IMG/VR virus record: IMGVR_UViG_3300025425_000093
Location: 1 to 32,036 of that record
Direction: 5' to 3' (one strand)
Length of the DNA stretch: 32,036 bases
DNA from: a virus
The notes below the pieces were generated by a model. That model did not search any database and was not told the origin of the DNA. It saw only the letters and a program-made list of their open reading frames with translations. Position numbers and translations under genes: made by a program. Below, one piece after another: positions 4,241-8,380 of this stretch; the first letter of the stretch is position 1; each line of letters begins with the position of its first letter.

Positions 4241-4449
4241 TGCAATTTTTAATTGGTATATTAGTTTGTTCGGCAGTATTAATAATGCTCCAAGGTTCAT
4301 GGTTAATGGTCATGGACGCTGAAGAACGATACAAAAAGCGTCAAGAAGAAAAGAGCATTGAAGCTGATGACGGTGAACCAGAAAATCACTGGGCAAGGTT
4401 AAGAAAAGCCTACCCAGCAATAGAAAAAGAGGATATCCACAATGGATAA
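4240..4449 (+). CDS. Small N-terminally anchored membrane protein
   Basis: The 69-residue product starts with a hydrophobic segment (FLIGILVCSAVLIMLQGSWLMV) followed by a charged cytoplasmic or periplasmic tail. The start is the TGATG overlap with the previous stop. Its last nine codons (IEKEDIHNG) lie in the 28-bp sequence that is repeated at 4967-4994, so the same bases serve as the end of this gene and as the ribosome binding site and start of the HNH gene. That overlap suggests its original neighbour was the 4987 gene. Confidence 0.6.
   Translation: MQFLIGILVCSAVLIMLQGSWLMVMDAEERYKKRQEEKSIEADDGEPENHWARLRKAYPAIEKEDIHNG
4422..4449 (+). repeat. 28-bp direct repeat, left copy, flanking the HNH gene
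   Basis: This stretch is identical to 4967-4994. It starts AGAAAAAGAGGATATCCACA and ends in ATGGATAA, so it contains a ribosome binding site and a start codon. Repeat-to-repeat distance is 545 bp and the space is filled by the HNH endonuclease gene. Confidence 0.95.
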
Positions 4450-4966: not shown

Positions 4967-4994
4967 AGAAAAAGAGGATATCCACAATGGATAA
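4967..4994 (+). repeat. 28-bp direct repeat, right copy
   Basis: Identical to 4422-4449; supplies the ribosome binding site and start codon of the 4987 gene. Matching stops at the bases immediately outside on both sides. Confidence 0.95.
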
Positions 4995-5190
4995 TGTTAA
5001 AGAGTTTATAGCCAAAGCGCATAAAAGTGCTGACAAATCCATTTTGAACGCGCAGAAAAGTGTTTCTATGGTTGATGTAGAAAAGGTTAAGGAGTGGTTG
5101 AGCAAGCCGATGGTGGTTAAAACAGGGCATTTTGCAGGGGTTTATTTTGCCCTATTTGCAATACTGATGTATCAGGTTATCATGTTCTAG
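4987..5190 (+). CDS. Small C-terminally anchored membrane protein
   Basis: The 67-residue product has a charged, helical N-terminal part (MDNVKEFIAKAHKSADKSIL...) and a C-terminal hydrophobic segment (FAGVYFALFAILMYQVIMF), a tail-anchor layout. Its start is in the right 28-bp repeat. If the HNH insert is removed, this gene would start eight bases before the stop of the 4240 gene, so two small membrane proteins were probably neighbours and coupled. Function unknown. Its TAG stop is the first part of the 62-bp tandem leader. Confidence 0.65.
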   Translation: MDNVKEFIAKAHKSADKSILNAQKSVSMVDVEKVKEWLSKPMVVKTGHFAGVYFALFAILMYQVIMF

Positions 5191-5311
5191 CCAGAGGTTG
5201 CATAACCCTCCTCCTGCCAGCCTGATCCACTGGCGGCAAAGACGGATCACTAGCCAAGGTTCCTATTGACCTTTTGAGCCAGCTTAGTCCACTGGTGGTG
5301 CAGACGGACTA
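5187..5311 (+). ncRNA. Tandem structured RNA leader (hairpin plus pseudoknot, twice)
   Basis: Two units, 5187-5249 and 5250-5311, are similar along their whole length with a one-base length difference. Each has a hairpin (unit 2: AAGGT 5256-5260 with ACCTT 5269-5273) followed by CCAG pairing with CTGG (5217-5220/5230-5233; 5279-5282/5292-5295). A second helix starts in that loop and closes downstream: TGATCC 5223-5228 with GGATCA 5244-5249 in unit 1, and TAGTCC 5285-5290 with GGACTA 5306-5311 in unit 2. Together they form an H-type pseudoknot. Two base pairs of that helix differ between units and stay paired. CCTTTT (5270-5275) is complementary to the AAAAGG ribosome binding site at 5318-5323 of the next gene. 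I read it as a candidate tandem cis-regulatory RNA; a DNA-level iteron or protein site is the alternative. Confidence 0.6.
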
Positions 5312-5330
5312 CTTATTAAAAGGAAAAGAT

Positions 5331-5780
5331 ATGTTTTTAACAGAAAAATGGAAAGAAAAGACAGCTCAAGAATTAAAGTTTTACAGTGAACCGACAATGG
5401 TTAGCAATTGTATGCGGACACCTGATGGAACTGTCCTAACTTCGCATCATCGGCATGATTATGTCACTCACATTGATAAGAACGGCAAAGAGTACATACT
5501 TGATGGCGGCATAGACTACATTATATGTTCAGATAATGGTGATGAGGAAATGCTTACTGTGTTTGATGATGCGCCTCATGAAGTGCTAAGAGATTGCGTT
5601 GCATGGGGGACATACGGTAAAGAAGGCGATCAACCTTTGTCATTTGTTTGTATTGCTGAAATGGAAACGGAGCATTTGCAAAGCTGCGTATTTGCTAAAG
5701 GGAGGAGAATGAAGGCGGTTATCAAGAAAACAATGAAAAATGAGCTGGAATATCGCATAAAGACTCAAACTCCCGCATAG
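5331..5780 (+). CDS. Conserved phage protein of unknown function
   Basis: The 149-residue product begins at ATG 5331 behind AAAAGGAAAAG; a longer frame from TTG 5274 would run through the structured leader and is unlikely. It contains the stretch RTPDGTVLTSHHRHDYVTHID, then YILDGGIDYI and WGTYGKEGDQPLSFV, a pattern I recall from many unrelated tailed phages with no known function. It is soluble, with mixed strand and helix character. It is alone between a tandem structured leader and a noncoding gap, so it may be controlled individually. Confidence 0.7.
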   Translation: MFLTEKWKEKTAQELKFYSEPTMVSNCMRTPDGTVLTSHHRHDYVTHIDKNGKEYILDGGIDYIICSDNGDEEMLTVFDDAPHEVLRDCVAWGTYGKEGDQPLSFVCIAEMETEHLQSCVFAKGRRMKAVIKKTMKNELEYRIKTQTPA

Positions 5781-5941
5781 CCTAAATGGTATAGCCTGCA
5801 TCGACAACAATCATTTCAAAACAACTTTCTGAACACCTATAATTGCGGTCCATTAACGAACTGGATACTACCGTGATTATTTATATGATTATCTTCATCC
5901 TTGCCTCCCTGTCAGCCGTTGCCGTTGACGACCTAAGTTAA

Positions 5942-5971
5942 TTTACATTTCTGATTAAAAACCGTTACAAT
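5942..5971 (+). promoter_or_regulatory. Sigma70-like promoter of the modification operon
   Basis: TTTACA (5942-5947), an 18-base spacer and TACAAT (5966-5971) lie 31 bases before the 6002 start. TTGAC (5983-5987) and GTCAA (5997-6001) form an inverted repeat between the promoter and the ATG, a possible operator. TTATAGGTGT (5989-5998) is also the exact reverse complement of 5833-5842. Confidence 0.6.
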
Positions 5972-6001: not shown

Positions 6002-6262
6002 ATGGATTCGTTAAGCGTATCCTCGAAGATAAACGATTGCACATTCTTTGATCTTGATGACTTGCTGGCTGAGTTTGACGGTATTATTGACTCGATCATG
6101 CAAACAGACATACAACGCCATCAAGTACGCTTGGCTGTTGCTGATTGGTGCGAGACCGTTGACGCAGTGATCGGGGAACTAGAAAGCCTTGACTACCTGC
6201 ATAATGATTACCAAGACACATCACTGCTAATGGCTGATGTCACATTCGGCACGGAGACATAA
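6002..6262 (+). CDS. Small acidic protein, unknown function
   Basis: The 86-residue product is strongly acidic and helical (FFDLDDLLAEFDGIIDSIMQ...). It is the first gene after the 5942 promoter and its TAA overlaps the ParB-fold gene start (TAATG), so it is part of the modification operon. Its negative charge could suit a DNA mimic or a partner subunit, but no family signature supports either reading. Confidence 0.55.
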   Translation: MDSLSVSSKINDCTFFDLDDLLAEFDGIIDSIMQTDIQRHQVRLAVADWCETVDAVIGELESLDYLHNDYQDTSLLMADVTFGTET

Positions 6263-6858
6263 TGCTATCAATTGAATATAAGGCTACTGGGGAGATTATC
6301 CCTTATATTAACAACTCAAGAACACACAGCGAACAGCAAATCCAGCAAGTAGCGGCAAGCATTAAAGAGTTTGGCTTCACTAACCCTATCTTGATAGATC
6401 ATGACGGAGGAATTATAGCGGGTCACGGACGCTTACAGGCCGCTCAATTGTTAAAGATGGATGATGTTCCCACTATCACGCTAAAAGGGCTTACAGAGGC
6501 GCAGAAGAAGGCATACGTTATAGCGGATAACAAGCTTGCGCTTAATTCAAGTTGGGATGATGAACTGTTAAAGATAGAGTTAGAATCTTTATCTGACAGC
6601 GGCTTTGATCTTGACCTTCTTGGTTGGGAAGTGTTACCTGATTTCAAAGACGATATTGATTACTCTATATTAGATGATGATGATCTTGAAGGTGAACTAG
6701 GAGTAATGACCGATGACGTAAAAAAGGCTATTCAGATTGAATTTGAATCGCAAGATTACGCTGAAGCTACGGAGCTTGTCAAGTTCTGGAGAGGTCAGGA
6801 TGCTTATGTTGGCGGGTTAATCCTTGATTATCTTAGAAAAGAAAAAAGCAAACTATGA
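6262..6858 (+). CDS. ParB/sulfiredoxin-fold nuclease-like protein
   Basis: The 198-residue product begins with the ParB N-terminal domain: IPYINNSRTHSEQQIQQVAASIKEFGFTNPIL... is the fold's first half and IIAGHGRLQAAQLL (51-64) is the nucleotide-binding box, followed by VPTITLKGLTEAQKKAYVIADNKL. In phages this domain is often fused to or next to DNA methyltransferases and in modification islands; some members hydrolyse CTP or ATP or nick DNA. Here the C-terminal 90 residues hold no methyltransferase motif (no DPPY or FGG). It is the first recognisable gene of the glycosyltransferase/TET cassette and is coupled to it by an ATGA overlap. Confidence 0.85.
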   Translation: MLSIEYKATGEIIPYINNSRTHSEQQIQQVAASIKEFGFTNPILIDHDGGIIAGHGRLQAAQLLKMDDVPTITLKGLTEAQKKAYVIADNKLALNSSWDDELLKIELESLSDSGFDLDLLGWEVLPDFKDDIDYSILDDDDLEGELGVMTDDVKKAIQIEFESQDYAEATELVKFWRGQDAYVGGLILDYLRKEKSKL

Positions 6859-7580
6859 TAGTCTGCATCCCAAGTAAAGGGAGGCCAGATACTCAGACGT
6901 ACAAGTTATTTGAAGAGTCTGGTTATGAGGTTTATCATTTTATTGAGCCTCAGGAAATGAGTTCTTACGAAGTACCTAATAAAATAAGCATAGCCGAAAA
7001 CGACAAAGGAGTCACATACGTCAGGAATTTTATGCTCGACTGGTGTAAACAGAAAAACATTGATTGGGCTTGGTTTTCAGATGATGATGTTAATGGGTTC
7101 GGGATATATAACGGGAAGACAGTTAGGTCTGGCGCCCAAGTGCTTAAAAAAGCTGAAGATAAGGCAAAAAGCTTGCCTTTTGAGATAATCGGTTTAAGTT
7201 ATGTGCAATATGCTTGGACTGAAAAGAAAAGCTATAGCATAAATAGTAAATTTGCTGAAGTCTGCACCCTAATGCACATCTCTAAAATCAATTGGAAATA
7301 CAATGAAAATACAAAAGAAGACAGGGATTTTGCCATGCAAACTATCCAGAATGGACACGGCATACTCAGGTTCAATCACATTTGGTTTAGCTGCCCAAAC
7401 GTAGGCAGTAATGCTGGAGGGCTATATGAGTGGTACGCTAGCAAGAAAGACCATCAGGCTGCAAAAAAAATGGCATTGTCTTGGAGTCCTTGGGTGACAT
7501 TGAAGCAAAAGTCTGACAGATTAGACATAAAGACAGATATTAAAGGCTTTGCGAAACATTGCATGAGGAAAGTTATATGA
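6855..7580 (+). CDS. TET-associated-type DNA glycosyltransferase
   Basis: The 241-residue product starts IVCIPSKGRPDTQTYKLFEESG and has WFSDDDVNGFGIY, with the DDD at 76-78 as the metal/nucleotide-sugar motif of a GT-A fold, then a conserved NEDRDF-like acidic segment (KEDRDFAMQ). This is the build of the glycosyltransferases found with phage TET enzymes, which add a sugar to hydroxymethylated bases. The sugar and acceptor cannot be read from sequence. It lies between the ParB-fold gene and the dioxygenase with ATGA overlaps on both sides, which strongly suggests a shared pathway. Confidence 0.8.
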   Translation: MIVCIPSKGRPDTQTYKLFEESGYEVYHFIEPQEMSSYEVPNKISIAENDKGVTYVRNFMLDWCKQKNIDWAWFSDDDVNGFGIYNGKTVRSGAQVLKKAEDKAKSLPFEIIGLSYVQYAWTEKKSYSINSKFAEVCTLMHISKINWKYNENTKEDRDFAMQTIQNGHGILRFNHIWFSCPNVGSNAGGLYEWYASKKDHQAAKKMALSWSPWVTLKQKSDRLDIKTDIKGFAKHCMRKVI

Positions 7581-8380
7581 TTAAAGTGCAAATGAAGCCT
7601 AATAAGCATTCTAGAAAAATTGGCTCAAGGTGCGAATTTATAGAGCCAAATATTACGGAATCATGTTATTTGTATGACGGTGAAGAATTGGTGGGCGTTT
7701 ACTTACAAAATGTAGCCGCAGAACACCCAAAGCTCGCCAAGGTTATGGCAATCGCTAATGCTGAGTTTCTTTCTAGCAATGTGCCAAAGACATTGCTTGA
7801 GAGGGCTGACGTCATGGCAAAAGTCAAAGCTGGAATGACCAGAGCGGAAGCGAAGAAAGCGGGAACAGTTCAGTACAGTACAATTATCGGAAGTATTCCT
7901 CCCAAACCTTTAATGAAAAGAGCCTACCCTAACAGGAGTAGCGTTCATGCTGTTCAGTCCGCTAAAACCTTTATTAAAGCCATGCTAATGGCTTCTAGGC
8001 AGATTACTCTAGTAATGGGTCAGTTGCTGCCATGTCACCTTAGAAGTCAATTAGAAGCCGTTTCTGGTGTAGATGACAAATGGAAATTCGGCGATTTATT
8101 TACAAGCAGCATCAGCAACTTTAACATTGCCGCTCCTTTTCATAGGGATACCGCAAACATTAAAAACACTTTAAATGCCATTTACACGCATAGGCACAAT
8201 GCTAATGGCGGTTGTTTGTATGTTCCTGACTATGACGCGTGTTTTGAGATGCCTACAGACAGTCTTTTGCTGTACCCCGCTTGGAGGAATGTTCACGCAG
8301 TAACACCAATCGAGCCAATCCACGAAGGCGGTTACCGCAACAGCTTGGTTTTTTATGCGCTTTCAGGGTTCTTAAAATGA
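7577..8380 (+). CDS. TET/JBP-family 2-oxoglutarate/Fe(II) dioxygenase
   Basis: The 267-residue product carries the full dioxygenase set near its C-terminus: H189-R-D191 (PFHRDTANI) and distal H240 (NVHAVTPI) as iron ligands, and R254 (YRNSLVFY) for 2-oxoglutarate. The surrounding NNTxNA-type segment and GGCLYVPDY match TET/JBP enzymes, which oxidise the 5-methyl group of cytosine or thymine in DNA. I chose ATG 7577 (ATGA overlap, GAGGAAAG upstream) over ATG 7559. The expected product with the preceding glycosyltransferase is a glycosylated hydroxymethyl base. No methyltransferase to make the substrate is seen in the window. Confidence 0.8.
   Translation: MIKVQMKPNKHSRKIGSRCEFIEPNITESCYLYDGEELVGVYLQNVAAEHPKLAKVMAIANAEFLSSNVPKTLLERADVMAKVKAGMTRAEAKKAGTVQYSTIIGSIPPKPLMKRAYPNRSSVHAVQSAKTFIKAMLMASRQITLVMGQLLPCHLRSQLEAVSGVDDKWKFGDLFTSSISNFNIAAPFHRDTANIKNTLNAIYTHRHNANGGCLYVPDYDACFEMPTDSLLLYPAWRNVHAVTPIEPIHEGGYRNSLVFYALSGFLK

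Follow-up and report, generated by a model that had tools for sequence, protein, structure and literature searches.

The mRNA of phage T4 gene 32 carries a pseudoknot that is bound by the gene's own protein; more generally, RNA-binding proteins of phages recognize pseudoknots within the mRNAs that encode them. The put antitermination RNAs of phage HK022 consist of two stem-loops. To our knowledge, riboswitches, ribozymes, and large ornate RNAs aside, few structured phage RNAs have been described. The class 1 exoribonuclease-resistant RNAs (xrRNAs) of the Flaviviridae form a three-way junction with short P1 and P3 helices and a variable P2, together with a pseudoknot, Pk2 (PMC7527734). Pk2 pairs the P3 loop with a strand located 3′ of P1, and these RNAs occur in the 3′ UTR of the virus, frequently with two or more copies (PMC7527734). 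Here, we examined two adjacent units in a 32,036-nt stretch of viral DNA (IMG/VR record IMGVR_UViG_3300025425_000093, positions 1–32,036), hereafter called the window.

The two units, at positions 5189–5249 and 5251–5311 of the plus strand, are members of one structured-RNA family. In unit 1, P1 pairs AGCC (5189–5192) with GGC (5235–5237), P2 pairs GAGG (5194–5197) with CCTC (5207–5210), P3 pairs GCCAG (5216–5220) with CTGGC (5230–5234), and the pseudoknot pairs TGATCC (5223–5228) with GGATCA (5244–5249). The corresponding helices of unit 2 are AGCC (5252–5255) with GGT (5297–5299), AAGGTT (5256–5261) with GACCTT (5268–5273), after which a TTGA linker follows, GCCAG (5278–5282) with CTGGT (5292–5296), and TAGTCC (5285–5290) with GGACTA (5306–5311). 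P3 and the pseudoknot together span exactly 5216–5249 in unit 1 and 5278–5311 in unit 2. An earlier note on this DNA had reported CCAG/CTGG in both units and a second helix that changes from TGATCC/GGATCA to TAGTCC/GGACTA, and all of these pairings were found as claimed. Its helices and pseudoknot in each unit therefore stand, but it overlooked a third helix, P1, in which AGCC, immediately upstream of each hairpin, pairs with GGC or GGT at the beginning of pseudoknot loop 3. In the window, P1 has only 3 bp, and that of unit 2 includes one G-U pair. Because P1 joins the hairpin to the pseudoknot, the predicted fold of each unit is a three-way junction of P1, the P2 hairpin, and the P3 hairpin, in which the P3 loop also pairs with the 3′ tail as a 6-bp pseudoknot.

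The pseudoknot motif pattern matched twice in the window and not once in 100 dinucleotide-preserving shuffles. With a covariance model (R1) built mainly from relatives, but with both window units included, unit 2 scored 65.8 bits and unit 1 scored 49.9 bits, and the next best match reached 8.7 bits. When single units were folded with nested pairs only, they were no better than shuffled sequences (z about −0.1), and the structural support therefore comes from covariation and not from free energy.

Among 49 distinct units, 94.5% of the cells were paired and both sides had changed in 13 of the 20 pairs. The covariation score of this set was 0.346, compared with 0.160 ± 0.009 for shuffled controls and a maximum of 0.095 for slid controls, both of which remove phylogenetic relatedness only in part. 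Its P1 cells were 93.7% paired, and P1 had played no part in choosing the sequences. A merged alignment of 64 distinct rows scored 0.355 (0.166 ± 0.009 when shuffled); P1 was paired in only 65% of cells there because an optional bulge partly misaligns its columns. The pseudoknot, which R1 does not demand, contained covarying pairs at five of six positions in the 49-unit set and at four of six in the 64-row set. Side-by-side reading of P1 yielded the variants GACC:GGTC, GATC:GATC, AACC:GGTT, GGTC:GACC, and AGCC:GGCT, as well as GGCC:G(a)GCC and GACC:G(a)GTC, which have one bulged base. All four P1 pairs form in 46 of 58 units, compared with 26.8 ± 2.3 for shuffled partners (maximum 36 in 5000 shuffles); when the units were collapsed to 28 distinct combinations, all four formed in 17, compared with 8.3 (maximum 14).

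Because the pseudoknot and CCAG/CTGG had been partly used to select the 49-unit sequences, an independent set was needed. This set consisted of loci anchored on TerL rather than on the motif and was searched with R1, which has no pseudoknot pairs but does hold those of P1 and P3, so that these two helices are less independent in it. In the TerL-anchored set, 59 of 66 pseudoknot positions were paired (48.1 ± 2.2 when shuffled), and the new pseudoknots TGGTTC:GAACCA, TGGCGC:GCGCCA, and TGATGC:GCATCA were observed. The P3 stems GCTGG:CCAGT, GCAAG:CTTGT, GCAGG:CCTGT, CTCAG:CTGAG, and CCTAG:CTAGG were also new, and they were beyond the reach of the original search pattern. The wobble pairs were strongly asymmetric, with 84 G-U and 15 A-C cells, indicating that the folded molecule is the coding strand. 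Unpaired sequence was conserved at an A between the pseudoknot strand and P3 and at an AAC that precedes the 3′ strand. The earlier note had proposed that selection acts on RNA structure and that a covariance model of relatives could check this; compensatory changes across relatives in all helices, P1 included, bear out the proposal.

More than 100 IMG/VR contigs, from uncultured phages of mostly marine lineages, contain relatives of the element, with a unit size of about 60 nt (about 62 nt) and one or two copies per locus. The tandem arrangement is not required, as many relatives have a single copy. Near-identical tandems were retrieved by scanning viral contigs with an exact pattern, and looser patterns, which left three positions per pseudoknot strand free, returned 30 and then at least 119 stretches. 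The three free positions all pair in 35 of 40 distinct viral strings but in none of 20 strings from bacterial genomes, indicating that the viral matches represent the family and the bacterial ones chance. Within the TerL clade at 76–93% identity to the query, the element was present in 53 of the 57 TerL-anchored loci that had at least 2 kb upstream: 47 with a model match and six with divergent, unmistakable copies recovered by a generic scan (L224, L227, L229, L230, L233, and L236). The element is nearly universal within its phage clade.

Meanwhile, a strict generic pseudoknot scan found nothing beyond the family in 2.8 Mb of strand-summed sequence, blastn did not find the element in any isolate phage of the collection searched, and four Pelagibacter phages and DSL-LC06, which have a related TerL, gave no match by pseudoknot scan or R1. 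In Rfam 15, no family exceeded the gathering threshold and the best sub-threshold match was chance-like, which agrees with the earlier reader's remark that the class was unfamiliar. A literature search found no description of the element, which is weak evidence of absence because most subscription papers and preprints were outside its reach. Sequence comparison thus indicates a previously undescribed family of folded RNA, the fold of which is clearly kept by selection. Some copies have additional features in their surroundings. In L111 (5650–6400), a long hairpin follows a tRNA-like sequence that lacks a normal anticodon arm; next come one element copy (5902–5970) and a repeated noncoding block, AAGASTCCGGCCCRCTGCACCTA, at 6129 and 6376. 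A minus-strand copy in L016 (790–859) is set apart from the rest of the family by its context, about 140 nt ahead of a tyrosine-recombinase-like (integrase) gene.

In the window, the last early gene (4987–5190, plus strand; 67 aa, no family match) ends in a TAG stop codon at 5188–5190 that overlaps P1 of unit 1. The identity of this gene varies by lineage, and homologous or different genes end at the same place in relatives. The distance between their stop codon and the start of the element is no more than about 14 nt. In most TerL-anchored loci in which the stop codon was found, it was located −14 to +5 nt from the first unit; the outliers were three loci at −55 to −59, in which a first unit that is degenerate or escaped detection may lie in between, and one at −76. 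Read-through of the stop codon was rejected, given that the next in-frame stop lies inside the element (TAG CCA GAG GTT GCA TAA in the window). Upstream, an exact 28-nt repeat, AGAAAAAGAGGATATCCACAATGGATAA, at 4422–4449 and 4967–4994, covers the ribosome binding site and the start of two different small genes.

The conserved gene order is the last early gene, the element, a spacer, an 83-aa gene, often TerS, and then TerL and portal. In the window, an 86-aa gene (6002–6262, plus strand), the counterpart of which is the first sizeable gene past the element in nearly all relatives, is followed by ParB-like, TerS, and TerL genes. Positions 6262–8380 encode, one after another, a ParB-like protein, a TET-associated glycosyltransferase, and a TET/JBP-like oxygenase; this is probably a cassette for DNA hypermodification that was inserted ahead of the terminase genes. 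In L005–L007, L009, L014, and L015, the late module lies on the opposite strand and is convergent, and the element still closes the early genes; it also stays with the early genes in L031 and L061, where TerL is non-orthologous. L139, which is unrelated, has a hairpin plus T-run after the element, and the genes that come next are convergent. This constant position at the early-operon stop codon, even with the late genes inverted or replaced, identifies a 3′-UTR element, and a late-operon leader or a packaging site was set aside because the element follows the early operon in these cases. Terminase genes are nearby in most genomes and the L016 copy precedes a tyrosine-recombinase-like gene, as might be expected of a DNA-level site for packaging, replication, or recombination, with the fold being that of one DNA strand; however, the strong strand asymmetry of the wobble pairs, and the fact that the element tracks the early operon and not the terminase when the order changes, make such a site extremely unlikely.

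Between the element and the late genes, the plus strand of the window contains two sigma-70-like promoters: TTCAAA-17-TATAAT (5815–5843), a candidate late promoter with a similar sequence at the same place in relatives, and TTTACA-18-TACAAT (5942–5971), which precedes the 86-aa gene and the late genes and is the same in L077. Promoter-like sites were located in the window and L077, and a similar sequence was seen by eye in other loci. Between the two promoter-like sites, upstream of the 86-aa gene, lies a short ORF (about 23 aa, MIIYMI...VAVDDL; about 5874–5942) that is conserved in most relatives. The location of the element between early and late genes would suit an antitermination RNA that lets RNA polymerase run into the late genes. 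This is quite improbable, because the late genes have their own promoter-like sites past the element, the element keeps to the early genes in genomes with an inverted or replaced late module, and only convergent genes follow it in L139.

A 149-aa gene (5331–5780, plus strand) follows the element in the window, and the ribosome-binding-site-like AAAAGG before it (5318–5323, plus strand) can pair with CCTTTT (5270–5275) in an alternative fold. On this basis, the earlier note had read the element as a translational switch, in which an arm of the unit 2 hairpin would mask the ribosome binding site of the 149-aa gene. The alternative pairing, CCTTTTGA / TTAAAAGG, is indeed present in the minimum-energy fold of 5250–5335, and a weaker version of it is possible in L005–L007. 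However, the gene is a guest, found only in the small subclade of the window (six records, window included), and in L009, L014, and L015 it is cut to its first few codons, with the element intact and the pseudoknot identical. Elsewhere there is no sizeable gene start for about 45–500 nt past the element, and the next ORF of at least 70 aa is well downstream in nearly all other loci; a riboswitch-like placement, consistently just upstream of a coding start, was not found across the loci. Moreover, the masking arm CCTTTTGA is kept in dozens of loci without any gene to mask. The absence and loss of the gene in relatives contradict the switch as a conserved function, which we regard as very unlikely, and the element does not exist for that gene. 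The gene was inserted downstream of the element, and a single transcript probably carries both. Its protein has remote homologues in Vibrio and Aeromonas phages and matched no entry in PADLOC, Pfam, PHROG, NCBIfam, or PDB.

Judging from its position at the end of the early operon, the element may set the 3′ end of early mRNA or shield it from ribonucleases, or it may leave a stable 3′ RNA, a reading that we favor tentatively. The element in the 3′ UTR would form a compact obstacle to ribonucleases, and this obstacle would protect or define the early-mRNA 3′ end; alternatively, a stable 3′ RNA would remain after decay. As P1 overlaps the stop codon, folding should wait for the terminating ribosome to leave, and a second copy would act as a backup barrier. 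The covariation, the coding-strand wobble asymmetry, the placement at the stop codon, and the attachment to early genes all argue for a 3′-end role. Against it, the 149-aa gene past the element has no close promoter, so that its transcripts must pass through the element, and a consensus terminator scan (loops of at most 8 nt) called none downstream of the element in the window, L070, or L077. Long-loop hairpins followed by T-runs were seen by eye after the element in L070, L077, L089, and L139. Just past the element, L070, L152, and L168 have an extra hairpin, AAGGCTCG..CGAGCCTT / AAGACTCG..CGAGTCTT, with compensatory change, and in L070 this is followed by a hairpin and T-run. P2 itself was rejected as an intrinsic terminator because divergent members have no T-run (GCCTGATTA), and a hammerhead ribozyme was rejected because the CUGANGA/GAAA core is missing.

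A trans-acting RNA would yield the same conservation, and the main rival is a small RNA, stable in itself or by processing, with a target in trans such as a protein or RNA of host or phage. Of the distinct upstream contexts, a minority have a TATAAT-like box whose end is 5–9 nt ahead of the element, so that the RNA would start at P1; TTGYCA-N16 accompanies this box in L224, L227, L230, and L236, and TTGCAA-16-TATCAT ends at 5183 in the window. The conserved unpaired A and AAC described above would suit a binding surface. Nevertheless, the box is missing in most lineages and coincides with hydrophobic codons that end the upstream gene, and no terminator is common to all members, so that we consider the small RNA possible but doubtful. 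The compact conserved fold, its conserved unpaired positions, and its fixed relation to the operon end are also consistent with a binding site through which a protein of phage or host would exert feedback on the early operon. Such sites are usually upstream of the gene they control, whereas here the last gene varies by lineage, and with no candidate partner protein found, this is unlikely. Whichever reading holds, the element is small enough for chemistry and crystallography and obeys a sharp positional rule, beginning at the stop codon that closes the early operon. It raises a testable question: are phage mRNA 3′ ends folded to control decay or to make stable RNA during infection?

When compared with the known systems, the element resembles T4 gene 32 in having an H-type pseudoknot in a phage mRNA, but it lies at an operon 3′ end and its pseudoknot is inside a three-way junction. 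Like the HK022 put RNAs, it is a short structured phage RNA with two elements in a row, but its position and structure differ. With ToxI, CptI, and phage pseudo-ToxI it shares tandem pseudoknotted RNA repeats, which are typical of type III antitoxins (PMC5086642), and phages can carry mimics of these (PMC3475682). An RNA resembling type III antitoxins, or a phage-borne decoy of such an RNA comparable to the pseudo-ToxI of phage PhiTE, is nevertheless highly improbable. The element is a three-way junction of about 62 nt, whereas ToxIN repeats are simple H-type pseudoknots of 34–36 nt; it often occurs as a single copy, and it matched no antitoxin RNA family in Rfam. No toxin gene with ToxN, CptN, or TenpN homology was found next to the repeats, and the downstream 149-aa protein, unmatched in the databases searched, is absent in most relatives. 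The antitoxin reading was therefore rejected for its lack of a toxin and its different fold.

The class 1 xrRNAs share with the element the P1/P2/P3 three-way junction with its short P1 and P3 and variable P2, the Pk2-type pairing of the P3 loop with a strand 3′ of P1, and the location in the 3′ UTR of a virus, commonly in multiple copies. In contrast, Pk1, in which 5′ nucleotides pair with those between P3′ and P1′ and close the ring, is missing in the element, because P3′ and P1′ are contiguous, with zero nucleotides between them in the alignments. A substitute pairing between the 5′ flank and the P2–P3 linker exceeded shuffles only slightly (p about 0.01, without correction for relatedness). 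Furthermore, P2 and P3 are separated by 3–8 nt in the element, compared with 0 or 1 in xrRNA, the pseudoknot has 6 bp instead of about 3, and the element belongs to a DNA phage of bacteria. Because Pk1 is absent, we do not file the element as an xrRNA. We think it improbable that tandem, ring-forming three-way-junction pseudoknots would here stop a host ribonuclease and accumulate stable RNA as an independent bacterial-phage counterpart of flavivirus xrRNA; the resemblance in topology is a lead and not membership.
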